From: Asterochloris sp. CNOR1
Taxonomy: Eukaryota; Chlorophyta; Trebouxiophyceae; Trebouxiales; Trebouxiaceae
Assembly: GCA_963969365.1 (NCBI GenBank)
Contig: OZ017749.1
Coordinates: forward strand, 434,001-498,000
DNA length: 64,000 nt
Direction of reading: 5' to 3'
Shown piece by piece: positions 12,501 to 62,588 of this stretch. The notes under the pieces are model-generated. The model saw only the letters and a list, made by a program, of their open reading frames with translations, was not told the origin of the DNA and searched no databases. Each line of letters begins with the position of its first letter. The first letter of the stretch is position 1. Both the position numbers and the translations under genes were made by a program.

Positions 12501-15500
12501 TGCCATCTGCTGATGTTGAAAGGTAACCTCCTGCAATGGGGAGCCGCCTTTAATAAATCTGGCTGCACAAACCTCACTGCATGCAAGACTGGCGTCCTGA
12601 CTCAAGCGCTGCTCACTGGCAGTTGCTGATGACCCAAAAGGGTTCAACTGCAGCTCAGTCACAGGCAACATGATGGGCACAGCTGCTTAATGAGTGCAAT
12701 TGTGGCTGTGATCATCATTGGTTGTTACAGCATCACATCATCATCTGCTGGCCAGGCAGGCTTGTCAGCAGGAAGGGGCCTCAAGTGGCCGTCATTGCAC
12801 AGGCACAGCCTTCACATTGTCAAGCAGACCCAGTGCATGTCTTGATCACCAACAAACCACAAGTCTCTCCACAGCTTGCACATCTGAAGATGATCCAGAC
12901 GGGGCTTGCAACCTCTGGCAGCCAATGAGATGTGCATCAGGGCAGGGCAGTGCATGCAGGCGTGGTGTTGGAGTTATGATATCAGCAGCACATTGCAGGA
13001 CGGTTCCTGGCTCTGTGAACAAGTGACAGGGGCAGCCTCTGTGTATAACTGTAAGAACTGTTGCTTGGGCTGCACGATTTGGGCTTGCACCTGTTGCAGA
13101 ATGGGCTGCCTGGCTGCAGCAAGTGTGCCGCAATATGTCGGCCATCGCCAAGCAGCTGGACTCACATTGTTCTCCAGGTCGGTCTTGGGCGGCGAGATCT
13201 GGAACTGGATGAGGCCGATCTTGGCATTCTCCATGCGTGTGGGGCCCCCTGCGGACTTGGCAGCCTTGTGGTCAAACACCATGCCCTCCACCTGCTCTGA
13301 GTCGTCCACCGTCCCCCCCAGCTTGGTGACCACCTTGATGTCCTTTAGGTCCAGGCTGCAGGCGGGCAACTCACAGATGCGCATGTACATTTGACCAAGT
13401 GGGAACCTGTGCAGCCCTGCCAAAACAAGGCTGCCCAATTGCCCTGCATCAGTTGGCATGAGTCCAGGCTGCAGGCAAAGAAGGAGGGCTTGGAGTGACA
13501 GTTGGGGATAGCAAGGTCGACGATTTCTTGCAGGAGGTGCATGTCAGCAGGCAGGCAGGGCCTGCACAGCCATGAGGCAGCACATCCTGAGCTTGTGGCC
13601 ATGCACTGCCAGCTTGGCAACCACCTTGATGGCCTTCAGGCTGCAGGCAGGGGGTGATGGGGCACAGCTACGTGTTTTCCCAATCTAAGCTGCCCAAGAG
13701 GCTTCACAAGTGGGCTGCAGGAAGCAGAGGGTGCACGGTACTGGCCGCAGGGCAGTCAAATCTGTGGCTTGGCTATTGGCATGTGTCAGGTCTGGCATGC
13801 AGGAAGGCAAGAGGTGGGGGGCTCTGGCAGCAGTGCAGTCAGCATCACCCTCACCGTTCCAGATCGACCATCAGGGAGAAGTGAATGCGGGTATGGTTCC
13901 CATCCACGGTGCCAGAAGTTTATGAGACAGGTGGCAAGCTGGGCAGACGCTAAACCCAGCAGGCCTGCAAGGCCTTGGGGGTCACACGGCTCACTCTCCA
14001 GGTGCAGGGTGCAGCCAAGCCCACACTGCGTGCAGCTCACAAGTTGCAGCGCTTAGGGGTGCAGCTTTGCCTGCCTCTCCCCCAACAACTAGGCTGAACA
14101 AGCAGCTCAACACACCCCGCTTACGACCTCAACTGACAGGCCCTGCAGCTGACGAGCCCTGCAGCTTACTTGCCCATTTGACAAGCTTGATAAACTCACA
14201 AGTCAGGGCGCTCTGGATCCAGCACCTTCAGCACGCTGTCCACTGCCATGGGGGACAGCAGGCTGGAGTACTGTGAAACCACCTTGCTGCTCAGAGATCT
14301 GCAACGCAGGCAGCAAGGGCTGTCAGGGCAATTGGCATGTAATGACTGCTACTGTGTCAGGGGAGGTCTCAAACATGACCGAGGTATCAAGGACCTGCGA
14401 GCACGTAGCCAGGGGCCTTTGGTGTGCCAGTGAGCCCCTTTGCTGTGCTGCTGCCGCATAAGAAGTAAGTGTCAAGCTGAGCACGCGGCAAGGGGCTGTC
14501 AGGGGGATGAGCACACAACTCAATGCCAGCACGTACAAGGTGTGACCAAGCCATTGCGCTCCAGTCATGTCATGTTGGCAACAGGGGCCCTTGGTCAGTG
14601 CTGGTTGTCAAGGTGCTGCTTCTGCTAGTTGATGCAGATCATAGGTCCAAGATGCACCACATGGCTGCCGTGAATGCAGGCACTGCAGCAGGCAGCAGCT
14701 GGGGCTGCATGCGGTCGTGCAGGCAGCCGGGTTGCAGGGCTCACGTGTTGGCGGCCTTGATCAGCGCAGCCCTGTCCGCCAGGTCAACAGGAATGGACAT
14801 CCCCTCCAGCACCTGCATGGGCCAGGGCCAGTGGTTTCTCTATGTGGAAAAGCAACGCAGACACCAGACAAATGTTGTTTGTAAGGCTAAACGCCACCAG
14901 TCCAGCTAGTTCGGCCTGTAAGCTGGTCAGTTGGAATCCCATTCTGTGCTGGTGCACATGCTGTGCCTCGCTGGAAACAGGCAGCAACAGTAGGATTGCG
15001 GTCAGCGGGACTTTGCCTCCTGCACGGCCTTCAGGCAAACATCTCCACAGCAGCTCCTACCTGCTCTCCCTGCCAATGCACAAGCTGTGCCATGCTTAAG
15101 CAGAGCACACCACCACTGCAATGCAGAGTCTCCAATGTACTTGTGATTCGCAGAGCACCTCAAGGTGCTCCCCGCCTGGGCCCCTGACAAGGCATCTGGT
15201 CATTGCCTCCTGCATGTGCTGTGCCCTGCTCTGTTAACAATGCCCGCCCAAAGGCCGCAATCGCCTGCCAAACACCGTGTCTCAAGCAACAGACCTCATT
15301 TGCCATTTGCATGGCGCTTAGGAAAGCCCCTTGAAATCCTCGGGGGTTGCCTCAGAGCACCACTGATTGCTGAAGGACGCCATCAGGAAGGCCTCTAAGA
15401 CTGTACGGCATTGCCCTTCTGATCATGTTGAGTGCAGCACACCTCGTTGGCCTTCTGGGCAGCCTTCAAGAAGGCGTCCGAGATGATGGTGGGGTGCACG

Positions 15501-16891
15501 CCACGCTCCAGAAGGTCCAGGCACTTCTTCAGCAGCGCCCCACAGATCACGGTCACTGAGGTTGTCCCGTCCCCAGCCACAATGTCCTGCAGCACCATGC
15601 AGACATGTGTGAGCATGTGCAGTGACTGCTGCCTCTTCTGAGCTGTGACATCCACCTGACAAGGGGTGGTGCCTTGGCACCTTGGGACTTACTAGTATCA
15701 TGGTTGTTGTTGTAAACGAAGCAGCCCTGTAAACCTCCACTTTGACCCATCCCTCGCCCAGGGTGGAGACTGCAGCCAGCCCTGCCAGTCCGCAAGACTG
15801 CTGGGAAACCGCCACACAGCAGCATGGCCAAGCATTGTACAGCTTGTGTGTCTCGTCCCCATGTGAAGAGCTTGCAGTAGAGGCTGCCAGCAGCCAGTGG
15901 CAGTCCAGCAGAGAGGTGAAACCATGATCACCTTCGACTTCATGAGCTGCACCAGAATGTCCACAGAGCTCGTAGCTGAGTCAGCCGAGGACAGCCGGCA
16001 GCTCAGGAGACGAGAGCACCCCTGGCTGCCTGTGAGTCAGCCAATCCCCATCAGAATCTTGTTAGCTGACCCCATCCACGCAGAGTTGCTGGGCCTAGCA
16101 AGGAGAGCTGTATTCCAGGACAGGAGTGGAACACGACTCACCTGTGACTTGGCCAGCTCCACCAGCATCTTGGCAGCTGGCTGGGTCACAATCATCTTGT
16201 TCAGGATGGTGGCGCCATCGTTGGTAATGATAACCTCCCCATCAGCTTGGCAGACCTGCACCAGGCAGCAGAGAGACTCTGTTGCAAGGGTCTGTGAAGT
16301 GCTCGGAGAGGCGCCCAGCATCGGCACTTTGCCATCAGGCAGCCGGCCACCAGACATGCAGCATGTCATGGCACATTCTTGCCCTCAGGCAGCATGCCCC
16401 ACGTCTGCTTGCCTGCAATATGGCTGCAGAAAGGTGGTGTAATGGCCAAGTCAGCAGGCATGTCCCAGGATGACGGGCAGTCCTGCCACTAAACCACAGG
16501 CAAAGTGGTGGACATGTTCTCAGGCAGCTGGCGTACCATCTTGTCCATTCCGCGAGGACCCAAGCTGGTCCTGACTGCATCGGCCACTGCCTTCGCGGCC
16601 TCAATGTTGGTGATGCGAACATCCTTCTTCTTGGAGTTTTGGCTGCAGCAGCAGGGGGCAGCAGGAGGCGTTGGCAGAAGCAGCAAGCCTCTTGGCAGCG
16701 GTGAAATCACTGGGCACATTGTCTTGAGCTGATGGCTGCGCAGAGCAGTTTAAATAGCTCTGATCTGATCCTGGGAGGGCTGCCATCAACGCAGAACATC
16801 ATGTCAGGCCTGCACATTGGGACATGTGCATCTTGGCGCACTTGTAGGTGTCTCCCTTGGCCTTCCTCGGGGCCACAGCTTCGACCGCCAT
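9513..16891 (-). CDS. CCT4: T-complex protein 1 subunit delta (CCT4)
   Basis: A complete 13-exon model with unbroken phase gives 532 residues, close to the family's usual length. Exons: 16891-16842, 16642-16537, 16255-16142, 15586-15443, 14812-14745, 14298-14200, 13355-13166, 12435-12274, 11643-11497, 10951-10721, 10361-10204, 9862-9756, 9535-9513. The start reads [16 protein letters not shown], and the last micro-exon supplies DDIVPTR before the stop. Diagnostic segments are [20 protein letters not shown] (nucleotide site), [21 protein letters not shown] (with the hydrolytic Asp), [37 protein letters not shown] and [20 protein letters not shown]. These identify the delta subunit of the cytosolic CCT/TRiC ring that folds actin, tubulin and WD-repeat proteins. 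The usual GGGAPE motif reads GGAAPE. Introns are long for the exon sizes; the one after the sixth exon (13356-14199) carries a relic of exon 7. Confidence 0.97.
13610..13650 (-). repeat. Decayed copy of CCT4 exon 7 start inside the preceding intron
   Basis: This stretch closely repeats the start of CCT4 exon 7 (about 13319-13361): it keeps the bases for TKLGG...VV, the upstream CTGCAG acceptor and part of the pyrimidine-poor flank. It lies about 290 bases upstream in the gene's own intron. A shorter copy of the acceptor region lies at 13461-13477. Confidence 0.6.
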
Positions 16892-17854
16892 CTGCACCTT
16901 TGAGATGGTGGGCGATTGATGCAATGCTTCAGTGATGCCCGCCGCTGCAAATGCAGACCTGGCGGTGGTGACTATATCGACGAGCTGAGCCCCCAGCAGG
17001 CCAAGGGCGCAGCTTCTGATCTCTTTGTTGCCCCGCTGAGCTTTGATTACAATCGACTGAGCTTGTTTTGTGGCATTCACAACGGGCTCAGCAGTTGCCA
17101 GCTGGGGAGTCTTCTGCCTTCCAAAGAGGTGCTTGGCAGTTGAATTGGCCAGGCAGGAGCATTTGGTCAGCATAGTTGCTTGTGGGCGCTGCATTTCTGG
17201 AGACACGGCGCACAGGCTGCCCCAACTCAGACCTCCAAGTCTGCAGCAAAGCGCTGTGCCTGCCCACTTACAGTGAGAGGGTTGCTGTGCTGACAGGGTC
17301 TTGTGTCATCATGGGAGTCTTGTATCCACCATGGCTGGCCCATGCATGGCGCACAGCCTGGCCCCTCTCCTTAGTCTCTTCAGCTGCTGCAGGCGAGCGG
17401 GCACCTGAGGCGCCTCACAGAGGAGTCCTGCAAGCTGCGCATGTTGCAGTTGCTGCATGGTGGAGCCTAGCATAGGGCAGGCTTCAGCGGACATGTTGCA
17501 GCCGTGACCGCTTCCCTCTACGGCTGGCTGCCTGCCCCAAAACGCCGACCTGCTGCGCGGCAGGCAGCTGCGGACACTGGGTGTTGCTGCAGCGCCAAGC
17601 CCAGCCGGATTCTGTTGGCAGCACTAGCGCCGCTGCCGGCAGCCTCTGAGCGTGGCCGGGGGCAGTGCAGGGAGCCAGCAGGCCCGGAACAGCAGACAGT
17701 GGCCTGCTCTGGTCAGCAAGCGTGCCACAGCGCACTGCCAAGCCGCGCTGCAACGGGCAACAGGGCTCAACGCGGCCAGCGGGGCCAGCACCTCAGTGCA
17801 AGGCAGCCAGAGCCCTGCTCCAGCCACAGCTGAGAGGGAGGCTGGCTGCAAAGG
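16892..17854. promoter_or_regulatory. Divergent promoter region CCT4 / PI4KB
   Basis: These 963 bases lie between the ATG of CCT4 (minus) and the ATG of PI4KB (plus), so both promoters and 5' UTRs should be here. Long open frames in both directions show no recognisable domain. I see no TATA box or other specific motif. Head-to-head placement is observed; co-regulation is inference. Confidence 0.4.
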
Positions 17855-30520
<12,666 letters not shown>

Positions 30521-31081: not shown

Positions 31082-31532
31082 GTGGCGCAGCAGGTAGTGA
31101 CTTCAGCTGTGACAGCACAGTTTGGTAGCACATTTGGGCTACCAGCCAGGTACCAGGTACCACCCAGGTACCAGGTACCACCCAGGTACCAGCTAGCCCA
31201 AACGTGCTACCACACCGCATACGATAACGGTCAGGAGGCATTGGAACAAGATGACCAAGCGTTTGTCAAAGCACCCTGCATGAGTGGATCAGGTGACCTT
31301 CTTCTGCTGCAAGGCTGGCGGCTGCCACCACGCTGAGATGAGGGGCAGCTTGCTCCAGCCCGACTGGTATCCTAAAAAGGACAGAACATCATGCTTCACT
31401 GACACCAATTATCTCTGGGTCCAGCGGTGCGAACCCTTCCTCATCCATACAAATGGTGCACAAGAATACATCGTCCCTGCAAATCAAGGCTACTGTCTGT
31501 TACGAGTTTGGGTCGGCTTGCTGGGCAGGTAG
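31082..31532 (+). other. Weak coding signal with YQVPPR repeats, unrecognised
   Basis: Two overlapping open frames in different phases cover this stretch. The first encodes a short repeat of YQVPPR; the second includes FFCCKAGGCHHAE and PYKKD-like and QRCEPFLIHTNGAQEYIV segments. I recognise no family. The composition is less GC-rich than in flanking genes. It may be a short gene of one or two exons or a decayed fragment; no start or splice sites can be fixed. Confidence 0.2.
31146..31192. repeat. Tandem 18-bp repeat rich in GGTACC
   Basis: Two identical 18-bp units (31146-31163 and 31164-31181, CCAGGTACCAGGTACCAC) are followed by a partial third unit ending at 31192. Each unit itself holds two GGTACC palindromes. 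Confidence 0.9.
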
Positions 31533-31545
31533 CATGATGAGGAAC

Positions 31546-33726: not shown

Positions 33727-34141
33727 CTGTGCAGCACAAAAGCATGAACTTGGCTCATTGGGACCAGCTTCTCCCTGTACAGCATGCCAATGTCTTGACA
33801 GGACTCCTTCTGCATGCAGAGCGGTCTTTTGGTGGAACAATGTGCAGATTGTGCTTGTTAGAGTTTGCATGCCCTTGGTTGAGTGTCACCTGCGTCTGCT
33901 GCTCCGCTGCAGCCATGGTGGCAGGAAGGCCCAGTGGGTTTTCAGACTGTAACACAGGATTCAAGGGCAGCACGAGTCACCCGACAACCAGCTGTAAGTA
34001 TGCTCACAGCAGCTGCTGCCCCTCAGGCAAGGGCGCTTGCATGCTCACATTTTTCCTTCGTGTCATGATCGACCATGACAAATATAACATGTGAGCATAA
34101 GTTGCCTGGCACCTGGACTGCATTGTGCTGCTTGATTGAGT

Positions 34142-35892: not shown

Positions 35893-36316
35893 TGAGACTT
35901 TGATACTTATGCATTTCCCAATGGTTAGGCGCTGTGCTTGCTAACCTCCCCTGCTGCCCCTGCATCTGCAGCAGGCACAGCTTGCAGGCAGTCTGTCACG
36001 CTCTGCCTAACAGACACAGCATCTCCCCTTGAAAACCCAAAAAGACGACATCAGGCTGGTCAACAATCATGTCTATTGTCAAGCAAATGGTGCTTGCTAC
36101 AGTCCTTTAAGCACATGCAGCACACAACGCAGAGACACAAAGCTGATCAGAAAGAGAAGGCATGGCTGAATTAGGTGCAGAGTCTCATGTTCTTGGGGGT
36201 GGCTTTTAAACACAAAAGCTCAGTTGGTGTGCTCTGCCTTAGCCAGGTACAAAGTAGATGACTCAGTACTGCTGAGCCTCCTTCTGCGCCTGCTTCTCCT
36301 GCTTCTGCAATCCAAC
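35893..36316. other. Intergenic region
   Basis: Apart from the 29-base relic near its start, I see no coding or regulatory signal in this stretch. Confidence 0.35.
35899..35927 (+). repeat. Relic of the last-exon sequence just after the stop codon
   Basis: These 29 bases (TTTGATA...CCCAATGGTTA) repeat 35839-35867 of the last exon of the preceding gene, 60 bases downstream and just past its stop codon at 35890-35892. Confidence 0.6.
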
Positions 36317-36583
36317 ATGATGGACAGTTTTGCTCCAAAAAGCATGCACAAGTTTGCATGTAATGCAGACTTTCTCATGCGTCACACAAAGGCAAAGCCC
36401 AGGCAGTACACACAGACAGACCTGGATGACAGGTGTGGGGTCCGTGGCCTTGCGTCCATGCAGCAGGTTGCTGATCTTGCCACCAACTCTGCACAGCAGA
36501 AATTTTTGCTCTCAAACGATGGGCATCTGCAACACACCAAGAAAGGCCACAACCTAGGGCCAGAACCTGTAGAGCTTGGCTAG
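36317..36583 (+). CDS. Small hypothetical ORF, 88 residues
   Basis: An uninterrupted frame from ATG 36317 to the TAG at 36581-36583 encodes a polar, basic protein with SMHKFACNADFLMRHTKAKP and QTDLDDRCGVRGLASMQQVA. It has no recognisable domain. It lies 65 bases from the convergent end of the Gly-rich gene. It could be an independent small gene, a terminal exon or chance. Confidence 0.2.
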   Translation: MMDSFAPKSMHKFACNADFLMRHTKAKPRQYTQTDLDDRCGVRGLASMQQVADLATNSAQQKFLLSNDGHLQHTKKGHNLGPEPVELG

Positions 36584-36648
36584 CCCTACAAAGGGGACTA
36601 CTTCAAAGAACCTGACTTCAAGGGAACTTCCCCAAGATTTTCAATAAC

Positions 36649-39600
36649 TCACCCGGGCTTCTCAGTGGTTCCAGTGCCAGTGCCTGTGGTGTCACCGTAG
36701 CCCTGCCCGCCAGTTCCGGTGCCTGCAGTGCACAAAGCGCCAGCAAGTCAGCCGCCAGCTGCAACATGGTGAGGTAGACCTGCCCACAGGACCAGTTGCA
36801 GGGACGAAGTTCTGGTTGCATGTGCTAGGTTAGGTCAGGTTTGTGCACAAGAATGTTGCTCACCTGTGTCCTGGCCGTAGCTGCCCTGGTCTCCCTGACC
36901 ACCGTAACCCTGCCCGCCAGTCCCGCCTGCAAAACATAGCGTCAGCAGGTCAGCCGCCAGCTGCAGCACACAAGTATCGAGAGGAACCTTGCAGCCAAAG
37001 CCTTGACCTGACCGTGAGTCTGGCCACCCTGGCCTATCAGCAAGTCAGCTGCCAGCTGCTGCATGCAGGGTGGGGCCTGCCCATGCACTGAGAGGAGCCT
37101 TGCAGCCTAATCTGACCTGACTGAGAGTCAATTCCGCCCTGGCCACCGTAGCCCTGGCCCCCGCCTGCAGTACATAGCGTCAGCAGGTCAGCCGCCAGCT
37201 GCAGCGCGCAGGGTGGGGGCTGCCCAAGAATTAGTATGAGCCTTGCAGCCAGACTTGACCTGACTGTGAGTCATAGCCGCCACCGTAACCCTGCCCACCA
37301 GATCCGGTGCCTGCAGTGCAGAGCGTCAGCAAGTCAGCCGCCAGCTGCGGCATGCTGGGGTAGGCCTGCCCAAAGGACCAGACTTCTTAGTTGCAGAGAC
37401 GATTCTGGTTGCATGTGCTGGGTTAGGTCAGGTTTGTGCACAAGCTTTCAAGAATGTTGCTCACCTGTGTCCTGGCCGTAGCTGCCCTGGTCTCCCTGGC
37501 CGTAGCTGCCCTGCCCGCCAGTCCTGCCTGCAATACATAGCGTCAGCAGGTCAGCCGCCAGCTGCAGCACACAAATATCGAGAGGAGCCTTGCAGCCAAA
37601 CCTGACCTGACTGTGAGTCTGGCCACCCTGGCCTATCAGCAAGTCGGCTGCCAACTGCTGCAAGCAGGGTGGGGCCTGCCCATGCACTGACAGGAGCCTT
37701 GCAGCCTTATCTGACCTGACTGAGAGTCGATTCCGCCCTGGCCACCGTAGCCCTGGCCACCGGTCCCGCCTGCAGTACAAAGCGCCAGCAAGTCAGCTGC
37801 CAGCTGCAGCACGCAGGGTGGGGCCTGCTCATGTATTGAGAGGAGCCTTGCAGCCAGACTTGACCTGACTGTGAATCGTAGCCGCCACCGTAACCCTGCC
37901 CACCAGATCCGGTGCCTGCAGTGCAGAGCGTCAGCAAGTCAGCCGCCAGCTGCGGCATGCTGGGGTAGGCCTGCCCAAAGGACCAGACTTCTTAGTTGCA
38001 GAGACGATTCTGGTTGCATGTGCTGGGTTAGGTCAGGTTTGTGCACAAGCTTTCAAGAATGTTGCTCACCTGTGTCCTGGCCGTAGCTGCCCTGGTCTCC
38101 CTGGCCGTAGCTGCCCTGCCCGCCAGTCCTGCCTGCAATACATAGCGTCAGCAGGTCAGCCGCCAGCTGCAGCACACAAATATCGAGAGGAGCCTTGCAG
38201 CCAAACCTGACCTGACTGTGAGTCTGGCCACCCTGGCCTATCAGCAAGTCGGCTGCCAACTGCTGCAAGCAGGGTGGGGCCTGCCCATGCACTGACAGGA
38301 GCCTTGCAGCCTTATCTGACCTGACTGAGAGTCGATTCCGCCCTGGCCACCGTAGCCCTGGCCACCGGTCCCGCCTGCAGTACAAAGCGCCAGCAAGTCA
38401 GCTGCCAGCTGCAGCACGCAGGGTGGGGCCTGCTCATGTATTGAGAGGAGCCTTGCAGCCAGACTTGACCTGACTGTGAATCGTAGCCGCCACCGTAACC
38501 CTGCCCACCAGATCTGGTGCCTGCAGTGCAGAGCGTCAGCAAGTCAGCTGCCAGCTGCTGCATGCTGGGTTAGAGCCTGCCCACAGGCCCAGACCTTTAG
38601 GTGGCATGCGCTAGGTTAGGTCAGGTTTGTGCACAAGCCTTCAAGAGTGTTGCTCACCTGTGTCCTGGCCGTAGCTGCCCTGGTCTCCCTGGCCACCGTA
38701 ACCCTGCCCGCCAGTCCCGCCTGCAATACATAGCGTCAGCAGGTCAGCTGCCAGCTGCAACACACAAGTATTAAGATGAGCCTTGCAGCCAAACTTGACC
38801 TGACTGTGAATCGTAGCCGCCACCGTAACCCTGGCCACCAGTCCCGCCTGCAGTACAAAGCGCCGGCAAGTCAGCTGGCAGCTGCAGCATGCAGGGTGGG
38901 GGCTGCGCAGATGTTAAGATGAGCCTTGCAGCCAAAGTTGACCCGGCTGTGAGTCAACTAGCCACCCTGGCCTGTCAGCAAGTCAGCTGCCAGCTGCAGC
39001 ATGCAGGGTGGGGCCTGCTCATGCACTGAGAGGAGCCTTGCAGCCTGATCTGACCTGACTGAGAGTCATATCCGCCCTGGTCTCCCTGGCCGTAGCCGCC
39101 ACCGTAACCCTGGCCACCGGATCCGGTGCCTGCAGTGCAAAACGTCAGCTAGTCAGCCGCCAGCAGCAGCATGCTAGCGTTGCGCAAGCCAACTGTCATA
39201 CCAGTAGAAGCAGCTCTCTGCGTGGCAGGGAACAGGGGAGGCCAACAGGATGCCAGCAGGAGCAGTCTCCCCAAAAAAGGCACAAAAAAGTGGTTCAGGA
39301 ATGTGTGCAGAAGTGATGCCCAGCACCCTATCTAAACTATATCAAGCCACATAACGATGCGCTGCAGTGATGGCAGCATCATCACTGAACTGGTTGGCGC
39401 TGCTGGAACAGCCTGACTCATGCCTGTGGGTGCAGAGCAAAGGCATGAGCGCTGCAGAGATGATTTCACCCTTCAGAACCACAAAATTGAGAACAAAGCT
39501 TGACACTCCAGGCTGTGGCAGCAGAGCAAAGGCCTCAGCCCTGGAAAGATGCATGACATTCGAGGGCTAGCATGTACTCCAACCTGCAGCTGCCATGAGA

Positions 39601-39791
39601 CACATGTAGCCAGGATGTAGTTGGCCGGAAGGTGCCGACTGACACACGCGCTCACCTGTGTTGCTGCTGTCAAAGCCAGTGCCGAAGGCTGTGCCGCCGC
39701 CGCCGCCAGAGTTGTCCATGTCCTGCACAGCCTGGCTACCCATGCCACCCTTGCACATCTCCTTGAGCTCTTCCTTTGATGGCTGAGACAT
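36649..39791 (-). CDS. Gly/Gln/Tyr-rich low-complexity protein encoded by a micro-exon array
   Basis: Exon 1 (39791-39656) starts MSQPSKEELKEMCKGGMGSQ and ends GTGFDSSNTG at an ACAG-GTGAGC donor. About 16 small exons follow between 39134 and 36649, all phase 1 at both ends, so any subset can be joined in frame. They encode variants of GTGGQGYGGGYDSQSG and GTGGQGYGGQGDQGSYGQDT, and a very short GQGGQTHSQ type. The last exon (about 36721-36649) reads GTGTGGQGYGDTTGTGTGTT, then EKPG and TGA. The product should be disordered, Gly-rich and possibly phase-separating or stress-protective. The introns are as repetitive as the exons, each carrying CAGCAAGTCAGCYGCCAGCTGC-like cores, so whole exon-intron units were multiplied. 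The neighbouring gene at 42226-43987 shares the TG[YF]DS-N and GTGTGG elements and is probably a paralog. Confidence 0.7.
37271..38480. repeat. Recent 605-bp tandem duplication within the micro-exon array
   Basis: Copy 1 (about 37271-37875) and copy 2 (about 37876-38480) appear nearly identical base for base; for example, the 110-codon minus frames at 37448-37780 and 38053-38385 translate identically. Each copy holds four to five micro-exons with their introns. The array around it is built of older, more diverged units of about 110-150 bp. Confidence 0.9.
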
Positions 39792-44691: not shown

Positions 44692-47600
44692 CTGCTCTTG
44701 GTGAGCGTGCGTACAGGCCCAGCCCTGCCCATCAGCTCAAAGCTGCGCCGGCGCGGCAGTGACCTGATGACAGTGGCCCGGCTCTCCTTGGCGGTGTCAG
44801 GGAAGTCGACGCAGTAGTGCAGCCCGCGGGACTCCTTGCGCTGCAGGGCGCTGCCCATGATCAGCTCCCCCACCTCCACCAGGTTGCGCAGCTCCAGCAG
44901 CTGGGGGCTCACGCCACAGGTGGCTGTCAGGGCCTGCACCTCGTGGCGCAGGCCTGCCAGGGTGTTCAGGCAGCGCTGCATGTCGGCGGTGCGGCGCAGG
45001 ATGCCAGCACCCTCCCACATCAGCGCCGTGACCTGCAGCAGGGGAGGGTGGGCAGGTGAGGGAGCATGCCAGTGGCCGATTGCTAGCAGCAGCTGGGGTG
45101 GGCGGCCAGGTGAGAGGGAGCAAGCTGCTAAAAGTGGGGTTGTGTGCTGGCTGCAGCAGTGGTGGGCGGGCAGGTGAGGAGGTCAGCTGGTGAAAGTGGA
45201 ATGCGGCCAGTGGTTCTAGCTGCAGCAGTGGTGGGCGGGGATACGAGGGAGCTAGCTGGTGTGATTTGATGTGAGGGCTAGCTGCAGCAAGGGCAGATGA
45301 GCGTGCACCCCGGGGGAAGCGGTGGCTGCCGTGCGGCCGATGTGCATGCACTTGGGACTCTAAAGCTGCCGACACTCAAGGATCTGATGTAGTCCTGACA
45401 AGAACAGGTGCCAAGGCCGCCATCAAGACTCTGACTGAGCAGCAGCTAGCAGACCAGAAAACAATGCGATTTGCCACAATCATGAATCACCTCCTTGCGC
45501 TTGGCAGCCACCCACTCCACAGCAGGCGCAGTCAGGCTGCGGGCAACGCTGGAACCTGTAAAGTCTGCGTCGATTGCTGCGCGGTGCAGGGCAGGGCCCG
45601 CGTGCTTGAGGGCGTACTCAGCGTGACTGACTGAGGGTTGCACAGCCTGCACAACAGGTCAGACGTCAGTGATCTACTGCTGGGGATTGGTAACTGCTGT
45701 CCAACAAGAGAGGCCCTGAACAGTGCTGCACACTTAGCAGCGATACGTAGCCACAGACCTCCCCTCCAGCGGTGCTCGGCCATTGGGCCTGACAGCTCCT
45801 CAAATCGTCAAACTGGGACCAGCAGACTCCCAAGCAACATGCAGCCACAAAGGCAGTCTGCCATTCAATCAGACTACTCACCCTGTTGGCAAAGACCAGT
45901 CCCTCCAGCAGGGAGTTGCTGGCCAGGCGGTTGGCACCATGCAGCCCTGTGCTAGCCACCTCGCCGCAGGCGTACAGGCCCATGATGGAGGTCTCTCCCA
46001 GGAGGCCTGTCTTGACGCCCCCGCACATGTAGTGCTGGGCGGGTGCCACAGGGATGGGCTGGCGGGTGATGTCCACGCCACTGGCCTGGCACTTAGCTGC
46101 AATGTTGGGGAAGTGCTCCAACACCTGCAAGAAGGCACAAAGCACAGGCTGAAGCGCCACAGACGAGCAACAGAATGTATCAGGAAAGGTGAGAGAAGGC
46201 AGCAGCTGGGAGAGTCAGCATTGTGTGTACGATTGGCCCAGCTAATGACGAAGCAGCAAGCCACATTCTGACCAAGGAGCCTGAAGCAAACAGCTGCCTG
46301 ACACCTGCTGGCTCTCACAGCGCCACAAAGTGCTACGATGCAGCATGCATGTCCCCTGCCTGACCACCTGACCCAGAGTGTATGCCTGTCCTCACCTCGT
46401 CAGCCTTCCTGTGGCTGATGTCCAGCAGCACGTGGGTCTCATTGCGCTTCAGCATCTGGTCATAGATGCTGCGCGCCACCACGTCCCGGGGAGCCAGCTC
46501 CAGCCGATCATCATAGTCTGGCATGAAGCGCTCCATTGCCTGGTTGTACAATAGGCCACCTGCACCATGAGAGAGCGCTGTACCTGAGAGGGAGGCGCAC
46601 CCAGCACAGCCTGCGTGATGTACAGATGCAGTGCACATTTTGCCACAGCAGCAGGCCATTCAAAACATCAAAGGACATACAGGGGACTTCTGCATCATTT
46701 GCATGCGTCAGCTGATGCAATGGGGGTCCTGCACCGACAGGTTGCTGCACAATGAGGCAGCAGGCAGCCCTTCCCCCAATCTAAGACACGAAGCGCAGCC
46801 CAGCAGGGAGCAGCAAGGTCAGAAGCTGCAGCTTTCAGATGACCCACCTTCACCCCTGACTGCCTCAGAGATGAGGAAGGTGCTGCCTGCAGCCTGGCTG
46901 CCTGTCCAGAAACCGGTGGGGTGGAACTGCACAAATTCCATGTTGCTGATGTCAGCCTGGGCACGGAAGGCCATTGCCATACCGTCCCCAGTGCAGACGT
47001 GGGGGTTGGTGGTGATAGGGTATACCTGCAACCGGCAGTGCATGGGGTTGGGACTCTTACCATGAATGAGAAAGCAAGGGAGGGGCTGCTGACCTGCTGC
47101 ATATGCATGCGAGGCCAGGTGCAGTGCCTCATAAACGCTGCTCACCTGCCCAGCGCCACCTGTGGCCAGCAGAGTGACAGGGGCTACAAAGCGCGTCATC
47201 TGGTTGCTCTTCTTATCCAGCACATCGGCGCCCAGGCAGTGCCTGACACCATTGACTGTATCGTATACAAAATCAGAGGCCAGGTGGTGCTCATGGAACT
47301 GAATGTTTGGGTTGGCCTGCACAGCAGAAGAATGCACAGATGAGTCAGGCCGACCCCGAATGCATGGGATGCACATAGTATCTGCAACAGCATTGCTGCT
47401 CAGGGCTCCCGCCAGCGCAGGTGTTCATCATGCTAGTGGGCGTGAGCAGAGCATGCTGAATCAGATTGCATTCTGACACTGCAAAACCAGGATACTGGTG
47501 ACAGAATGCTGCAGCTGCACAGAAAAGCTGTCAGATTTTAGACAGCGGCCCTGCCACAATCCAGGCACAGCCCACCTGCGCTGCAGTCAATAAGGCCCGC

Positions 47601-49370: not shown

Positions 49371-50067
49371 GCTGCCTATGGGGCTGGTTGTCTAAGTGTG
49401 TGCTGCGTTGGCAGGGGGTGGTGCTGGCTGCCTTGCTGGAAGTGCTCTTCACCTGCAGCATCAGGCAGCACATGTGCCAGCAGCTCCTGGGCGCTTGCCC
49501 CCTTTGCATGTATGCCAAGGCTTGTCACCGCGTGGACGAGGGTCCCACACTCACCTGCTCTGATAGTGGATTGGAAACTTCTTGTTGAACACCCAGGTGC
49601 GCTTGCCGCCCTTGTGGCTCTGCAGCAGAACAGCCACCATTACAAGAGTGCTGCACGCGTCTGGCACCCTGTTAATGGCTGCAAAGCCACTTAGATCAGG
49701 TAAGTCCACCCCACAGACAGACAGCGGCTGGCAGATGCCCTACCTGCATCGAAGCTCCCTCTTACACGCTGGTGTCTGTCATCAGGCGGCCACTCATATA
49801 GCTGTGCTCAGAGATTGTGGTGTGTTGCTTGCTGTGTGCTGGAGTCTGACGATTGCTAACGTGTAGCACAGTCTGACGAGAGCTGGAAGGCAAGGGGAAA
49901 ATGACCTAATGTAAGTAAAGACCAGTGCAATCACATGATGACCGTCTGCATCCCTCGATCTGGCCCTCCTGTGTCCAGCTGAACCGGCATGATTCAGCAT
50001 GATCTGCAATCCAGCACTCCACATATCATCCACTCTTGAAGTTGGCATGGTAGGCTACAAAAAAGTT
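49371..50067. other. Intergenic region: aspartate oxidase promoter and BIN4 3' flank
   Basis: This holds the upstream region of L-aspartate oxidase and the 3' flank of BIN4, both on the minus strand. No recognisable coding segment or regulatory motif is seen. Confidence 0.35.
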
Positions 50068-51714
50068 TTACTTTTTAGAGCCTGCCTTTGTGGCTGGCTT
50101 CCTGGCTTTAGAGGTGAGGACTTTCTTTGCAGGTTTTGCCTTGGCTGGCTTGGCAGATTTGGCTGGGCCCCTTGTAACTGGTTCATCCATGGCATAGTTG
50201 TCGTCATCATCCATCACAAACTGCCGGCCCTGCGGCAGAGCATTGTGTTTTTGCGTTCACAGCATCTGCTACTGGCAGCAGATTGGAAGTGGTGACTTGG
50301 AGATGATAAAGCTGAACACGTCAGTCATCGGGCAGGGACTGCATCATCGCGGGTTGGGTGATGCCAGACAGCCCCTCTTCAGCGCGCAGGCAGACTTTGA
50401 GTCCAGCCGCACCTCTTCATCATCCGTCAAGCCTGGTATGGGCCTCTCATGCAGGTTGATGCAACAGCTGTGCACAGCTTCAACTTTGGCGGTTGTGCCA
50501 CTTATGCTGATTAGCATTGCGGTGTTAGCCAGGGGCACAACAGCAGCTCGGTACAAGACACCTGCAGGACAGGACAATCAGCCCATTCCTTGCCACAGCA
50601 GGCCATCTTGCAGCTTTTCTGGTGGCATAGCATACAGAAACAGTCCGGGACACAACAGTAGAGAAAGAAAGCTAGAGCAGTTTAGGTGCTTCACCCAAGC
50701 ACAGGCACAAATAGTGGTGACACTGTCAGGCTGGCTGCATGATGAGCAAGCAATCAGAAGTATGGAATGGAGGCTCTCAATGATATGAGGCTTTGGACAG
50801 CCCACCTTTAAGGTCAACCATGAGTTCCTCACCCCCATCGCGCTCGTCCAGGCTGAACCTGCCAACAGCACCTGCAGGGCGATGTGACTCAGCACAGCAG
50901 CAGCTGTGGCAGGCAGCCCTCCTGCTGCTCACATGTTGTCAAGCACCGAAATTTCACTGCAATTACTTTTGAGCATGTCGCAGGGAGCCAGGTTCGTGAA
51001 TGTGCAGGCTGCGAGGCGTTGCCTCATAGTATCCACGCTGTGCAAGGCTGTAGTGCTCATGTTGGTTGCAATGCTGAGAGGAGCGCCAACTCCCCACAGG
51101 GGCATGCAGGCCCTTTCTGTGTTACCGACCCAGCCGCTGTCTCAGTCAGCCACAAAGAGCTTGAACAATAAAAAGCAGGGGTCCTTCAGGCCGGAAGCAT
51201 GCCACTCTGTCACTACTGACCTGCATCTCCTGTCAGGTCCATGCCCCCCAGCTCCGCCAGGTATCTATTCTGCACCAGCTTGTCCGGCAGCATGATGTCA
51301 ACGGTGCCTGGCGCAGATGCAGCATCGCCCTTGCCCCTGGCAGGAGCAGCCTGGCTGGCAGCCTGGCTGGGCTGCGTGGCGGACTGTGTCCCCTGCTGCT
51401 GGGATGGATCAGGCTGGCCATCCTCCTCTGTTGCCTGCTGGGCGGGCTCTGTGTGGCTAGGCAGGGGTTGGACTGTGGCGGGGCCTGTCTTTCGGCGCTT
51501 AGCAGGCTGTGATGAGGGGCCAGGGCTGGGCTGGCGGGCCTCAGGGGAGTCGATGACCTGGCGCTTCTTGCCTACAGCAGTTGGTCTTGACCTCAAACAA
51601 CACCCAGCAGCACTTGGCTGAAGAGACCTGTGCAACATGGGGGGGCGCCTCACACACACCTACTTTAGGGTTGACTATCAGCACATCATCGTCATCACTC
51701 TCATTGAGAGCCAT
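50068..51714 (-). CDS. BIN4: DNA-binding protein BIN4 (topoisomerase VI complex subunit)
   Basis: A complete five-exon model in consistent phase gives 260 residues: 51714-51660, 51571-51221, 50871-50806, 50561-50413, 50229-50068. The conserved core spans exons 2-4: DLTGDAG-AVGRFSLDE, then GGEELMVDLKGVLYRAAVVP and SISGTTAKVEAV. This aligns with the diagnostic region of plant BIN4/MIDGET (GDMGAVGR, LDLKGTIYK, GQTEAKIEAI). The N-terminus is acidic (MALNESDDDDVLIVN) followed by a Pro/Gln-rich region with KKR and KRRK basic clusters. The C-terminus is an acidic patch (FVMDDDDNYAMDE) and an AT-hook/histone-H1-like Lys/Pro/Ala tail (KPAKAKPAKK). BIN4 acts with the plant topoisomerase VI A and B subunits and RHL1 in DNA decatenation during endoreduplication. 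It is shorter than land-plant BIN4 (about 450 residues) because the N-terminal region is reduced. Confidence 0.8.
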
Positions 51715-52066
51715 CTGAAGAGATGCATGCTGGCCATAGGGGGACTGCAGTCAGACAGCTCAGTGTCACATCACATGGCAGATTTGTCCCGATCATAATA
51801 GCAATGCACACAGCAATCCTACTTCCTGGAGCCAATCTGGCAAAGGGAGTGACGTCTCCCGATCCGAATCCATGAAAGGAGCAAGGGCTGCCAGCATTGA
51901 CTTTTAGGTTTCGCAGCCATTGGAGCTCAAAATTTGTTGGGCATAGATCTGTCGGCCTCAACAATCGATCCTTGTAGATAGACTCAACATCAGGGCACAG
52001 CTACTCTGATGGCAGGTGTGCTAGGGAGGAGGGCTGCCTCAGCCCTGGCAGGCAGGGTGCTGCACA
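51715..52066. promoter_or_regulatory. Divergent promoter BIN4 / mitochondrial EF-Tu
   Basis: About 350 bases separate the BIN4 ATG (minus) from the tentative EF-Tu start (plus). Both promoters must lie in or around this space. No specific motif is visible. Confidence 0.4.
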
Positions 52067-56376
<4,310 letters not shown>

Positions 56377-56700
56377 AAGCCCTCATGCCGTCCACCAGTC
56401 TGGCCCTCCTTTGTGCTTGCTGTTGTCTTTCACTAGCTGTGCTGTATGCTGAAACGAACTCGTGTCAATCTGGCGCCTCCCCTGTGTGAAGGGCATGAAC
56501 CTGCTGGGGACTCTGGTGCTCACGGGAGATGTAGGGTTAGCTGGCATTGCTTCATGGCTCTCAGCTACTGCGACACACACATGCACTGCCAGGTCAGCCA
56601 GATGGGGAGGCTTTTACCGTGGATTGCAAGAGGGAGTCACAGATTCAGTTGTAGGTTCACATGTAAAACACTGATCTCAGCTCAAACTGACCATATTGCA
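56377..56700. other. Convergent intergenic region EF-Tu / CDCA7-like
   Basis: The EF-Tu stop (plus) and the CDCA7-like stop (minus) are 324 bases apart. A plus-strand TGTAA at 56662-56666 could be the EF-Tu poly(A) signal. No gene is seen. Confidence 0.35.
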
Positions 56701-59700
56701 TCATGCCTTCATGGTTATTGCCTGGGACAAAGACATTTGCTCCAATGTCCTGCAAAACACCCCACCATGTTTGAGCTTGATGGTCTCGGCTATCCAGGGG
56801 GTGCGTGCTTGGCAACCGCCTGATGGTGAGCAGCTCTATTGAGGGGACATGCGACGGGTGCACAGCGCCGTACCCAGAGCAAGTAGATTGACACAGGGCA
56901 AGCTGCTACTCAGCAAGCAGATGGGCTCAGAATGCATTGCTTGTATCTCCATGCGGCCTGAGGGCTCTTGCTCCCACAAGAACCCCAACATGAATTTGGA
57001 CAGGACGACACAGCATACTCACTTGGACCCACTGAACTGCACTTTGCACAGGCCTGTAACATGGTCGACTTCAGTGACCTTGCCCAGCCTCATGCGGCGA
57101 GTGCCCTTCATGGCCTTGCGCACTGCCACACCCAGAATGTCCTCTGCAGACGAATACCTCTTCTCAGACACAAACTGTTGCTATGGCACAACATGGCCAG
57201 CAATCTGCCTTTCACCGATCTGGGGATGATAGGGACCATGCGGTCTGCCCTGCAAAGAGTGGGGATGGTAGGGCCCACGCTGTCAATGCTAGCTGTAGTA
57301 GTCACCAGGCTTCAACACCCAGCAGGCAGCCTGCAGCTCATACAGGGCAGCCTGCACGGCGGACTCCCATAAATCAAGGCATCAGAGCAAGCCAGGAGCT
57401 GGCTCTGCAAGAACACTCAAGCCTGCCAGTGCAGAGATACAAGTCGTGTGCCATCACTGCTCATGCCTAAGAGGGCACAGAGCAGCCTGATACAGCCCTT
57501 GAATGTGCACAGGAACACACAGAGGTCTAGTCTGCAGTATGCAGGCGCTGGCTGTGCCTGAATCAAGTCTTTGACAGTGAAAGACCAGGAGAGTATGGCA
57601 GACTGCGCATTCCTTTTCATGGCAGCGCTGCCTTTGCTGAGCAATGGACATCCACCTGTCAAGCCCTGCACAAAAGCTGCGGCAGCTATGCAGGCCGTGA
57701 TGGGGCAGCAAGCAGCCTGAGGCAGCGCTGACTGGACACAGAGTTATGAGGCACCCACCTGTCAGGCCACGCGCGGGAGATGCGGCAGCTACAGCTGCCC
57801 CGCTTGCCTTCTTGCCCCGCTTGGCACTGGCTGGACGGGCAGTGTTGGCTTTCCTGCTAGGCAGACTCAGCTTCTGCTGCACGCTGTGGCGAGATGACCT
57901 GGTTGCCCTGCCAGATGCAGCTGCCCCTGCAGGTGCAGTCAAGTAGGCAATCCAGCGATTTGGTAAAGCACCAGATGTTTCAGGAGGCTTAGCTTCTGCT
58001 GGAAAAGCAGTGGAGGGCCCGATGGGAGGAGGCGGCCCCTGTAGGTGCAGACAGACAGGCATCTTACCACAGCAGCTGAATGGCATGCACCATTGGCTCA
58101 GTGAAGATAGGGATGCTGCAATAAGAGGCCCTGGCAGATGCCTCTGCCCCTGCAGTCAAGTTGGTTTGTCACCACAGCAGTTTGACACATTCTTAGGCAG
58201 GCTCAGCTCCTGCTGCACATGCCCCACAAGGCTCTAGATGACATGCTGGATGTGATCGACTCTGCAGGCGCAGGCAGGTGGTGTCAAGCCAGGGGCTGAT
58301 CTGCAAAAGGAGTGAGAACTTTGTGCTGGCTGGGAATAGGACTTCTAGAGCAAGACACCTGCAGGTGCAGGCGAGCAACAGGCACAGAAGCTTGTTGCTA
58401 CAGCGAGGTTCAGGCCGGTGGCCAGGCAAGCCTTTAGTGCTTGCAGGGCAGCGCACCTTCCGCTGCCTTCATGGCGGCTGTGCCCTCAGCGCCCCCGTCT
58501 GCTGCGTCTTGTTCCTGTGGCGTAGCGCCTGACGCATCATCATCTGCATGTACAATGCCAGCTTGCTCAGCCCTGTGTAGCATTGCACATGTAAGCCCTC
58601 AATACAAGAAGTGGGTCACGGGGCATCTGTGATGGACATGCCCGCTGTCCATAGAGAGCACTATTGACGTTCAGCACATGCAACAGATGATCTCCCTCTT
58701 TCATCACAAAGCAGCTGCTGGCACAAAACGGCATACCTGCGGCCACTGGAGCTGCTGCGACCATGTCGTCTGCAGCAGGGGCAGCCTCGGCACCTGAAGC
58801 CTGCTCTGCCTCTGCAGCAGGTGCAGCTGCCTGGACGTCCACCCCCTCTGCTGCGGGCTGAGCACCAGCCTGCTGGCTCAGCACCAGGTAGTGCGCCACT
58901 GACTTGTAGCCTGCAGCAGATTGTGCAGCTGCAGTGGAGCACAACTGCTTTGCATGTGCAGTGCCCCTGCAAGCCGGCTGGACCAGCACCAGGCAGTGCG
59001 GCAGGACAGTCTGGCCTGCTGCAGGATGTGCAGCTGCTGGCATACTGGCTGCAGCCGTCATGCCCTCCCTTCAAGAAACTTGACATTAATTTGCCAGGGC
59101 ATTAGCAGGCACCATCGTCCGCCTCTGGACAGCCCACCACATCAAGATGCTGAGTACACTGCACCACAAAGCAGAGAAAGTCGTCCTGCGTCGAGTTAGC
59201 CCCTGGCAGTGCAGCATGCCAGTGAGGCACGCCCTTCTTGATCCCAAGCGCAGCGCAACACCAGCTCAACTTCAGCCTGCACACAGCATCTTGTGAAGCT
59301 GGAACTGGCTGATGCCATATTTTCACACTAGACAGGCTTGGTGGCCCACCCCTCCCTGTGCCCAAGTGCAGCACATTGCGCACTCAGCACTGCTAGCCCG
59401 CCTTCAGCTGGCAGGAGAGCATGCGAGTAGAAGACTACTCTTCTGAACGCCACAAAGCAGCACAGCATTGGCTGCTCAAATTCAACTAGCGACGGGGGTA
59501 CAGCGTGCTGGTGGGAGCCCTTTAGGACGCCCAAAACAGACTATGTTCAACCTTAGCATGTCAAATGACATTAGCCACTGTGTGACAGTGGAAGTTGCCA
59601 GCGAGAGCCCACCCCTCCTTGAACGCCAACACAGCATGTCACAGACTTAGCACTGTCACCCTGCTTCAGCCAGCATCCCGTGGCACATGTGCCTGTGTCA

Positions 59701-62588
59701 GCCTGGCTGCGTATATGTAAAAAAGCTGCCACAGGACTGGCTAGTAGCCCACCTTCAGCCAGCGCGCGGCGGTACAGCGTGCCGGTGGGGGCCCACCCCT
59801 TCTTGATGCGGTGGAAGGAGCAGTTGCACAGGTCGCGGCACACGGGGCACATCCAGTCTGGCTTGGCCTGCACCTCCGTGATGTTCTCCCCGTAGCGCAT
59901 GTACAGGCAGTCGCCGCACAGCACGCCCTGCAGCAGAGGCATGCACTGTCATTGCGCAGTTCTGGTGTGTCTTTGGAATGGTCAGGCCCTGCAGTGCGAA
60001 CGTTCTTTCCAGCAGGAGCCATGCCTGTACAGGCAGTCACCGCACAGTAGGCCAAGCAGGCAGCCATTGGGTTGGCTGCAGGGTTGACCGAAGTGGCGAC
60101 CTCAAGCAAAGAGGGGCCACAATGAAGACACAGGCCCTGCAAGGCAGCTGCAGCAGAAGGCAGGCACCAACTTTGGCAATGCCAGCGCGGCCTGGAGAAG
60201 CTGGGCTTGCAATGCAAACCAGTAGCAAGGAACCAGCCTGCAGCAGATGCGAGCACAGCATTGACCTGGAGTGGCAGACATACAAGGGGCTGCACAGGAA
60301 GTGGCAGTGGCTGCACAGCACACCCTGCACGATGCAGAAGCACGGCTCATTCCTGCCTCTCAGGACAAAATGCTGGATGAAGCTGTAGCGGCCAAGCACA
60401 CAAGAGCTCGTGTTTTGTGCTCTGCATAGGGTGATGCTTCTGCATGGCGCACTCTGCAGCAGCAGGAGCGAAACTTTACGTCTGAGAATAAGGCCGTGGG
60501 CAGTGCCACCCAGGGCGGCTCACCTTGGCTTGCATACCCTCATCTGACAACGCATGGATGCAGGCTGGCTTCAGGGTTTGGTGTTGCATGCACATGGGCT
60601 CAGGCACGCTGATCTGGAGCTGCAAAGGGGTGCGACTCACCTGCAGGCTGCTGCAGGAGGAGCACGAGGTGTGGTGGCCCAACGTCTTCTGGCGGCACTG
60701 GTGGCACGTCATGCCGTTGACCTTGTCATACACACGCTTGCCCGTGGAGGGGTCGTAGCCGTCAACAAACAGCTCCCTGCAAGACAGCGGCTGCAGTCAG
60801 ACATGCAACCAGAAAAGCATGAGCAGGGAGAGAGTCGTAGCAGTCAAGGCACAGCTCCCTGCAGAGGACCCATCTCCAAGAGGATTTTTGCAGAGCACAT
60901 GCAGGCCTGGGTGAGACATCCTAGAGCAGGGGGTCAGGGCCACAACAAAGCTTGTGTGGGCATGGATGTGACATGAGCATCCAGCAGGTCAGCCCTTGTG
61001 GATTTGAGCAGGCGGGCAGCTCAAGAAGGCTTCAAAAGTGTCCCGGCAAGCCTGTGCTTCTCATGTTCTTGGTGAGGCAGGCAGGGTGGGGGAGTACAGG
61101 AGGCATTGCCCAATGCAGGCTGATGCTTGACGATGCTGGCGTCGGGCTACTTGTAGCATGCAGCAACAGGTGCAAGGCTGAAGCGCCTGAATTCTGTGAG
61201 GCAAGTGCTCACCAGGGCTCCTGGTAGTCACCCAGCAGCCTGACGTGTTCTTGCGTGTACACCTCCTCTGTGGCACCAGCTGCAGATCAAGTGATGCTGT
61301 GCTGAGCATATTGCCAATGAAAGAAGAAAAGCAACAAGATAAATTGGCACACATTTGCGTGCTAATTGGGTAAATGCAGTGCCGGGTTCTCCTTGGCAAG
61401 CACTGTGCTCAATTAAAAGCCTGCCCACCCTGTGATGTGCATGCAGCCGCAAGGTTCACACCCACAGCCAGAAAGCCCAAGCACATCCCACACTGTCTCT
61501 GCAAGTCCTCCCATACACATGCAGCCTAGGGCTGCAGACTCCTTGCTGACAGGCTGCAGCTGCCAATCATGCACAAGCTCTCTCTCCCAGTGACATGCAC
61601 ACCTTGCTTCACAAAGCCAACTGGGGCTGGCCAGGCTGTTTGTAAGCAACCAAACAGGGTCAGCAGCACTCACGCCTCAGCTCCCCAACAACGGTGCGCC
61701 CCTTGCCTCCCCTGCGCCTGACGGGGGCGTCCACCAAGTCCAGCACGCTCTCGCTGTAGCTGACTGCAGGCTGGCCCTCCCGCCGGGATGAGCGGCGCGG
61801 CTCCACAAAGCACATCACCTGCAGCAGATGACAGGTGTGACTGGTCGCAATGTACTGCGTGAGAGTCAGGCTCCAGGGACAGAAGGGCCCGGGAGACACA
61901 CTGTGACCCTTCCTGCAGCACACCATTTGCAGCAGGTGCCAGGGCAAATCGTGGCTGCATTGCTGCACAGAGGGTCACTGGAGCCTGTGGGGAGGGGAAA
62001 GCAGAGTGATCAAGGGGCGGGAATGTCAGCAACTGTCATTCAGGCGCAAGGGAGGCAGGAGGTACAGGGCAGAGCTACTCAGTGCAACCTGCAGCAAGCC
62101 CAGGCAGGCCTGTGCACCACACAGATTCATGATACAATGCTCCACGGTGCAGGCCCTGATACCTTGGGAGCTGGAGCACTGCGGGGCTTGCTTTGTGCCT
62201 TGCGCTTGGCAGCCAGCCCCTGAGCCAGTGTGCTTGATATCTGCAGGGACGGGGCGCAAGTGGTCAGGTGCATGGTGAATGTTGCAATCTTCAACCTCCC
62301 GGCCTCTGCAGCTTTCCGGCTTTTGGGACCGAGCAGAGCATGTTAGCAGGGACCCCTCTGAAGGGGACATGCTGACAGAATCGAGCGGCATGATGCGGGA
62401 CAAGCATTGACCTGTCTTGGTGATGAACACCTTGACTGGCATGTTTCCGGTGCCTTAGCCCAGTCTGCTGCCCTGACTCCATGCAGGGGCTCGTGAGGAA
62501 GGCAGGAACCCACCTGGCTGAGCTGCATTTCCCTCATGCGCTTCTTGTTCTCGGCGATTCGCTGAGCGCGTTGCTCCTCATAGCTCAT
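56701..62588 (-). CDS. CDCA7-type zinc-finger protein with C-terminal Tudor-like segment
   Basis: Twelve exons in continuous phase give 445 residues: 62588-62514, 62240-62163, 61984-61922, 61818-61674, 61279-61213, 60776-60641, 59927-59753, 58910-58737, 58543-58457, 57926-57759, 57143-57023, 56749-56701. The start is MSYEEQRAQRIAENKKRMRE, followed by basic and RRSSR segments, then EEVYTQEHVRLLGDYQEPW. The zf-4CXXC_R1 domain (about residues 160-245) reads MTCHQCRQKTLGHH, CSSCSSLQGVLCGDCLYMRY, DWMCPVCRDLCNCSFHRIKK and GWAPTGTLYRRA; then YKSVAHYLV. Positions mutated in human ICF syndrome (Arg of CRQKT, Gly before CG, Arg of RYGE) look conserved. The usual CNCSFC is CNCSFH. An Ala/Glu-rich and Lys-rich linker leads to LGVAVRKAMKGTRRMRLGKV and TEVDHVTGLCKVQFSGSK, which resembles a Tudor/PWWP-like barrel. 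CDCA7 partners the remodeler HELLS in DNA methylation maintenance. Confidence 0.85.
57948..58210 (-). repeat. Relics of CDCA7-like exon 10 in the preceding intron
   Basis: Copies of the exon 10 start (57926 downwards) and its CTGCACCTGCAG acceptor recur at about 58000-58060 (with CTGCACCTACAG) and 58129-58210, each followed by the bases corresponding to the QQKLSLP-coding segment (GCAGAAGCTAAGCCTCC-like). Both copies have diverged. Confidence 0.55.
58965..59040 (-). repeat. Relic of CDCA7-like exon 8 start in the preceding intron
   Basis: The copy lies about 112 bases upstream of exon 8 (58910) and matches it strongly: its translation reads HCLVLVQPAC beside the true HYLVLSQQAG, and the CTGCAG acceptor and GCAGCTGCACAATCTGC-like flank are repeated too. 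Confidence 0.75.
59212..59690 (-). repeat. Several relics of CDCA7-like exon 7 end in the following intron
   Basis: Fragments matching the end of exon 7 (59753-59830, coding for KKGWAPTGTLYRRALAEG) recur at 59212-59253, 59493-59527, 59603-59633 and 59659-59685. Shared pieces include GTACAGCGTGC-GGTGGG on the plus strand, the CCCACCCCTTCTTGA block and CTTCAGCC at the donor. Confidence 0.6.
60018..60345 (-). repeat. Two relics of CDCA7-like exon 7 start in the preceding intron
   Basis: Exon 7 starts at 59927 with bases for GVLCGDCLYMRYGE. A copy at 60018-60066 still translates to CGDCLYRHG, and another at 60288-60345 begins GVLCSHCHFLC after a TGCAG. They lie about 120 and 400 bases upstream in the same intron. 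Confidence 0.7.

Follow-up and report, generated by a model that had tools for sequence, protein, structure and literature searches.

Decayed copies of exon edges in the introns of Asterochloris sp. CNOR1, probably left by untargeted short tandem duplication

Tandem duplication at splice junctions in described systems

The AGGT model of intron gain predicts that a copy of the upstream exon end lies flush at the end of the intron and a copy of the downstream exon start at its beginning. Tandem exon duplication involves the same type of mutation, with a unit that holds a whole exon. It differs from what we describe here, where most cases copy one edge only, although a Gly-rich gene at 36-39 kb of the window (the whole 64,000-nt stretch of DNA analysed, C4:434001-498000) resembles its whole-exon outcome. 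This gene (36263-39722, minus strand) is predicted to consist of tandem exon-intron units, in which exons of 63, 51 and 54 nt, all divisible by 3, recur about every 600 nt, with sub-units near 149 nt; a Pfam search with its protein gave no match.

Tandem duplication beside or across splice signals is described for ATP2A1 and a potato RdRp gene (PMC4974935). As in those cases, the duplication found here lies at splice signals and the duplicate sequence is hidden by splicing, but the intron pre-exists, no new intron is formed and the AGGT geometry is absent. In human segmental duplications, internal tandem repeats occur at exon-intron boundaries, where they are likewise spliced out and elongate introns; they are minisatellites with mean units of ~30 bp in primate-specific paralogs and sometimes gave novel introns (PMC2812944), whereas the units of Asterochloris sp. 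CNOR1 are diverged, measure about 140 nt and are also found in conserved genes. The potato and human cases indicate that splicing can conceal tandem units located at exon borders (PMC4974935, PMC2812944). Novel intron positions in Drosophila have been attributed to tandem duplication or intron sliding (PMC2891723); the exonic duplication followed by splicing away of one copy is similar, but the product there is a new intron position and not a relic beside an existing intron.

A comparison of Chlamydomonas relatives states that the advantage of introns well above the minimum length is unknown and that the mechanism driving intron length is probably ancient (PMC8226300). Relics tied to a known parent sequence allow intron growth to be dated and counted. 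The exact pattern reported here, decayed edge relics beside existing introns, had no description among the literature matches listed, from a search that most subscription journals lie outside. What we add is how common such relics are beside existing introns, and that untargeted duplication with selection on mRNA would be enough to produce them.

Exon-edge copies in adjacent introns

The window was analysed together with two further stretches, 200 kb from C1 and 50 kb from C8, all from a genome of 56.4 Mb in 21 contigs. Genes were predicted with a two-strand exon finder built for this work and trained from EF-Tu and PI4KB exons, which returned 36 genes, 582 exons and 546 introns (median intron length 292 nt) over the window and the additional 250 kb; its seed recall was 13 out of 13, but the same seeds had served as the start of training. 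Pfam matches were obtained for the products of five window genes, namely CCT4 (TCP-1 chaperonin), PI4KB (PI3/PI4 kinase and PI4KB accessory domain), EF-Tu (all three EF-Tu domains), aspartate oxidase (FAD-binding oxidoreductase, which fits this enzyme) and a CDCA7-like gene (zf-4CXXC_R1, which fits this assignment), while gene models beyond these are predictions without outside support. GC donors look common, being present in 79 of the 546 predicted introns, a share that is perhaps inflated by training the finder with GC donors. Three of them lie at homology-backed borders of EF-Tu or PI4KB (52421, 53167 and 29038, plus strand), and the 13 predicted introns of CCT4 contained none.

Each edge was queried with at most 60 nt of exon letters only, so that shared splice motifs gave no score, against at most 400 nt of the adjacent intron, and an SW score of at least 100 was taken as a match. 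For exons of at least 40 nt and introns of at least 80 nt, 54 out of 990 edges matched their own adjacent intron and 2 matched the reversed intron (24 versus 2 among 498 acceptor-side edges and 30 versus 0 among 492 donor-side edges). When the intron flanking the opposite edge of the exon was searched at equal lengths, matches fell to 1 out of 462 and 1 out of 463, compared to 24 and 27 in the adjacent intron. Accordingly, 51 of these 925 paired edges matched the adjacent intron only and 2 the opposite intron only (p 3e-13), in agreement with the first-pass annotation, which had placed copies of an exon start upstream and copies of an exon end downstream. Matches were found in the window (12/183), C1 (28/628) and C8 (14/179). 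The comparison of own with swapped introns that had been proposed alongside that annotation gave 20, 43 and 17 edges by region scoring above all 60 swapped introns, where 3.0, 10.3 and 2.9 were expected. A separate ungapped scan for direct repeats at 35-450 nt yielded 172 repeats with a score of at least 30, compared to 4 at a control offset of 10 kb, and 127 versus 0 at a score of at least 34; the copies are direct and local, as the suggested short tandem duplication would have them. Exon-edge copies inside introns are therefore genuine, as had been claimed, and are present on both strands and in each of the three contigs sampled. The process had been proposed to be lineage-wide; the present data extend to these three contigs of one genome.

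Joining the edge scan with the ungapped-repeat scan gave a set of 91 relics (52 donor and 39 acceptor) at 79 of the 1,092 edges that border an intron, i.e. about 7% of exon edges; 3 relics belong to the Gly-rich gene. The exon part of the relics had a mean identity of 0.80 and the median spacing was 141 nt. Reading frame was scored in 72 of the 91, the remainder having a short exon part or belonging to the Gly-rich gene. Since 56 of these 72 carried a frame-breaking gap and mismatches were nearly even over the three codon positions (0.217/0.178/0.219, a slight difference with p 0.02), most relics are without coding constraint. Of the splice dinucleotides, which the relics had been said mostly to include, AG was kept in 22 out of 39 acceptor relics and GT or GC in 36 out of 52 donor relics. 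These dinucleotides decay at about the rate of the exon part, near the neutral expectation (identical in 22 acceptor and 32 donor relics, with 25.0 and 34.2 expected from exon-part identity). Sites scoring above 2 in the site models remained in 27/52 donor and 18/39 acceptor relics (51 and 39 for the true sites), and 10 donor and 5 acceptor relics equalled or exceeded the true site in score. About half of the relics thus retain a splice-site-like sequence, in support of the spare sites anticipated earlier. By our own count, ungapped blocks reached the junction exactly in 27 out of 40 donor-side and 13 out of 25 acceptor-side cases, and their offsets modulo 3 were not strongly biased (remainders 0/1/2: 12/18/10 and 11/6/8).

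At least two copies were present at 29 out of 76 edges (SW of at least 85, a list that may include chance copies; the three edges of the Gly-rich gene were taken out). The first two spacings were near-equal at 11 of these 29 edges, compared to about 11% by chance, and not near-equal at the other 18. Recognisable repeat pairs were present in 103 out of 546 introns and covered 8.3% of the intron bases, the Gly-rich gene included. These figures probably understate the real coverage, since old copies become unrecognisable. The claim that introns are lengthened agrees with median lengths of 462 nt with a relic and 279 nt without, but long introns also offer more room for finding one.

Relics in five conserved genes of the window

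Across the homology-supported parts of these five genes, 10 out of 79 edges (summed) reached an SW of at least 95. The earlier report of exon-edge copies in CCT4, PI4KB, EF-Tu and the CDCA7-like gene was borne out at this threshold in all four, and the fifth gene, aspartate oxidase, contained intron-only copies.

In CCT4 (minus strand), the start of exon 13166-13355, which was defined by the gene model, Pfam and alignment to TCP1 delta, is copied 291 nt upstream at 13584-13640, where 13609-13640 matches 13318-13349. A second copy of the acceptor of the exon start at 13355 lies 113 nt upstream (13462-13476, 15 nt identical). Further relics correspond to the start of exon 10721-10951 (11013-11068, D 119) and the end of exon 16142-16255 (16030-16070, D 111). 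The relic at 13584-13640 is open and in frame and was called as a 57-nt exon by the exon finder; in the alignment it forms a 19-residue insertion without counterpart in the solved TCP1 delta chain. Judged from its sequence, it would be either a relic able to fool a gene finder or a true new exon, and of the new exons that had been proposed this case is a suggestive candidate. Relics can lead gene finders astray, CCT4 being an example, and offer ready material from which new splice sites could arise.

PI4KB (plus strand) carried relics of both kinds of edge. Exon ends were copied at 18820-18864 (exon 18539-18725, D 141, with a further copy at 18955-18969, D 273), at 20804-20863 (exon 20450-20662, D 201, with another at D 381) and, more weakly, at 23176-23234 (exon 22974-23131, D 101). 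Exon starts were copied at 28164-28215 (exon 28238-28402, D 74, AG kept; a third copy has its junction at 28089, D 149), at 29342-29401 (exon 29419-29574, D 78, AG lost) and at 29973-30022 (exon 30067-30228, D 95). The stretch 29248-29628, the sole locus searched for the near-identical copies at many loci that introners would leave, gave one match in the genome search. Downstream of PI4KB, an 18-nt tandem repeat, TACCACCCAGGTACCAGG, is present in 2.9 copies at 31140-31192.

In EF-Tu (plus strand), the end of exon 55058-55209 is copied at 55328-55389 (D 178), with a further decayed copy near 55485 recognised by eye only, and an intron-only tandem repeat with a period of about 74 occupies 53647-53749. 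Aspartate oxidase (minus strand) had none of its 18 edges at an SW of at least 95, the best being 79. The splice-site arrays noted in this gene correspond to intron-only copies at 45033-45261, beside one acceptor, that of exon 44692-45032, at offsets 64, 69, 118 and 187.

The CDCA7-like gene (minus strand) carries an array. Copies of the end of exon 59753-59927 lie in 59393-59752, with relic junctions at 59662, 59568, 59478 and 59393, i.e. at 90, 184, 274 and 359 nt from the donor, and the repeating unit is visible in the alignment. The start of the same exon is copied at 59989-60053 (D 126) and again at 60303-60329 (D 397), so that this exon has copies on both sides. The starts of exons 60641-60776 and 58737-58910 are copied at 60811-60858 (D 82) and 58951-59007 (D 104), respectively, and the end of the predicted exon 57759-57853 has a relic at 57656-57696 (minus strand, D 104).

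Origin of the relics

We consider it likely that untargeted short tandem duplication, combined with a splicing buffer and selection on mRNA, explains the exon-edge relics. Short tandem duplications with units of mostly 45-400 nt would arise over gene bodies with no aim at splice sites, presumably by slippage or unequal exchange at the DNA level. A duplication within an exon would damage the protein and be lost, whereas one within an intron would be neutral. A unit across one splice junction could also be neutral as long as the mRNA is unchanged, for the spliceosome may go on using whichever donor lies closest to the upstream exon, or whichever acceptor lies closest to the downstream one. The second copy, left in the intron, would then decay while intron length rises, and the outcome would be exon-end copies downstream and exon-start copies upstream, the outward-only pattern being a consequence of selection on mRNA. 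The copies are direct, local, one-sided, sometimes repeated and mostly frame-broken, and their offsets, without strong modulo-3 bias and near-equal at part of the multi-copy edges, fit tandem duplication followed by decay.

Outside the Gly-rich gene, intron-only and splice-crossing repeats numbered 53 and 63 (0.84), with events that are non-independent, as arrays were counted several times in both classes. Untargeted duplication was simulated on the real gene models with 6,000 units per setting, adding decay with the exon copy constrained and the two intron copies free, and gave intron-only/edge ratios of 0.92, 0.96 and 0.93 in three settings. These ratios assume uniform ages of at most 0.5 changes per site (the relics seem older) and chosen indel rates, and any detected block of an edge unit is scored as edge. 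Random placement put 49% of the units inside introns, 25% across an edge so as to include 20 or more exon bases and 7% within an exon. Because the observed 0.84 is near the untargeted 0.92-0.96, splice-site targeting is needless for the class ratio, and the earlier proposal of a process acting specifically across splice sites found no support, although a modest enrichment below about two-fold is possible. Exon-exon repeats outside the Gly-rich gene were 8, of which 1 lay within a single exon; the remaining seven each link two predicted exons, six of them including a short one (33-66 nt) that could be a relic misread by the finder. This scarcity of within-exon repeats points to selection on mRNA.

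A different origin, in which exon edges are copied into the neighbouring intron by a splice-site-directed process without contiguous tandem units, is improbable, even though several observations lean towards it. Ungapped homology often stops a few nt past the junction, donor-side blocks numbered 40 compared to 27.0 by random placement (acceptor-side, 25 and 27.2), and 73% of 33 testable relics had no flank homology at z>2, a share above that simulated. Against it, untargeted duplication is compatible with the class ratio, spacing in the CDCA7-like array is regular, flank homology is plain in some relics and arrays (e.g. the donor at R1 124447, z 6.5) and part of the drop at the junction is predicted by single versus double decay. 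An mRNA intermediate was also considered and is disfavoured because the relic flank does not run into the neighbouring exon (mean z -0.05, 4/91 above 2). That the relics would be functional alternative exons or splice regulators under selection seems quite unlikely. Such a role would agree with the splice sites that still score above 2 and with the CCT4 relic, an open, in-frame stretch that the finder took for an exon, but this relic is an exception among predominantly frame-broken copies with nearly even codon-position mismatches, and the dinucleotides are lost near the neutral expectation.

Intron gain through AGGT exon duplication (the Rogers model) shares the type of mutation but can hardly account for the relics: none of 88 relic junctions came as close as 20 nt to the far end of the intron, and over 511 introns the identity between the upstream exon end and the intron end was 0.326, compared to 0.328 when swapped, which supports the distinction from this model that was drawn at the outset. 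Equally remote is an explanation by chance similarity, shared splice motifs or assembly artefact. The sequence is G+C-rich with recurrent CTGCAG-like words, as noted by eye, but the queries were exon-only, the reversed, opposite-side and far-offset controls were near zero, swapped introns were clearly exceeded, and the copies are about 20% diverged with indels, unlike assembly duplicates.

Some results fit plain tandem duplication less well. Among them are the excess of donor-side over acceptor-side blocks, the slight difference between codon positions and the spacing that is not near-equal at 18 of the 29 multi-copy edges. Flank homology past the junction reached z>2 in 16 out of 62 relics. 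Among the strictly testable ones it did so in 27% of 33 (54 detected), compared to 58%, 42% and 30% in score-matched simulations, and the mean z was 0.86, with simulated values of 3.9, 3.0 and 1.8 as indels become more frequent and larger. These runs supersede a simulation without score matching (mean z 6.0 versus 1.0 observed). Relics with a better-preserved exon part had no more flank homology (Spearman 0.02). Intron turnover may be higher than one would judge from what is still visible of the relics, which would account for the weak flanks; otherwise, some relics are non-contiguous duplicates. Ungapped repeats in intergenic space were 3, compared to 12.0 by random placement, in only 28.9 kb that may contain missed exons or regulatory sequence; this deficit speaks against a fully uniform process, and the duplication rate over the genome may be uneven. 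In addition, relic scores were below those of constant-rate simulations, young copies being scarcer than simulated, and for this reason the relics look old.

More tentatively, splicing-buffered tandem duplication could be a main driver of intron lengthening in this lineage, although we regard this as rather doubtful. It would act as a one-way ratchet with occasional in-frame exons, such as the 57-nt relic of CCT4 and the repeated exons of the Gly-rich gene, and would pile junction-spanning duplicates outward from exons, with partly working splice sites left behind at several percent of exon edges. As a side observation, predicted exons of 42 nt (R1 122473-122514) and 36 nt (R2, near 5.7 kb) themselves copy a neighbouring exon edge.
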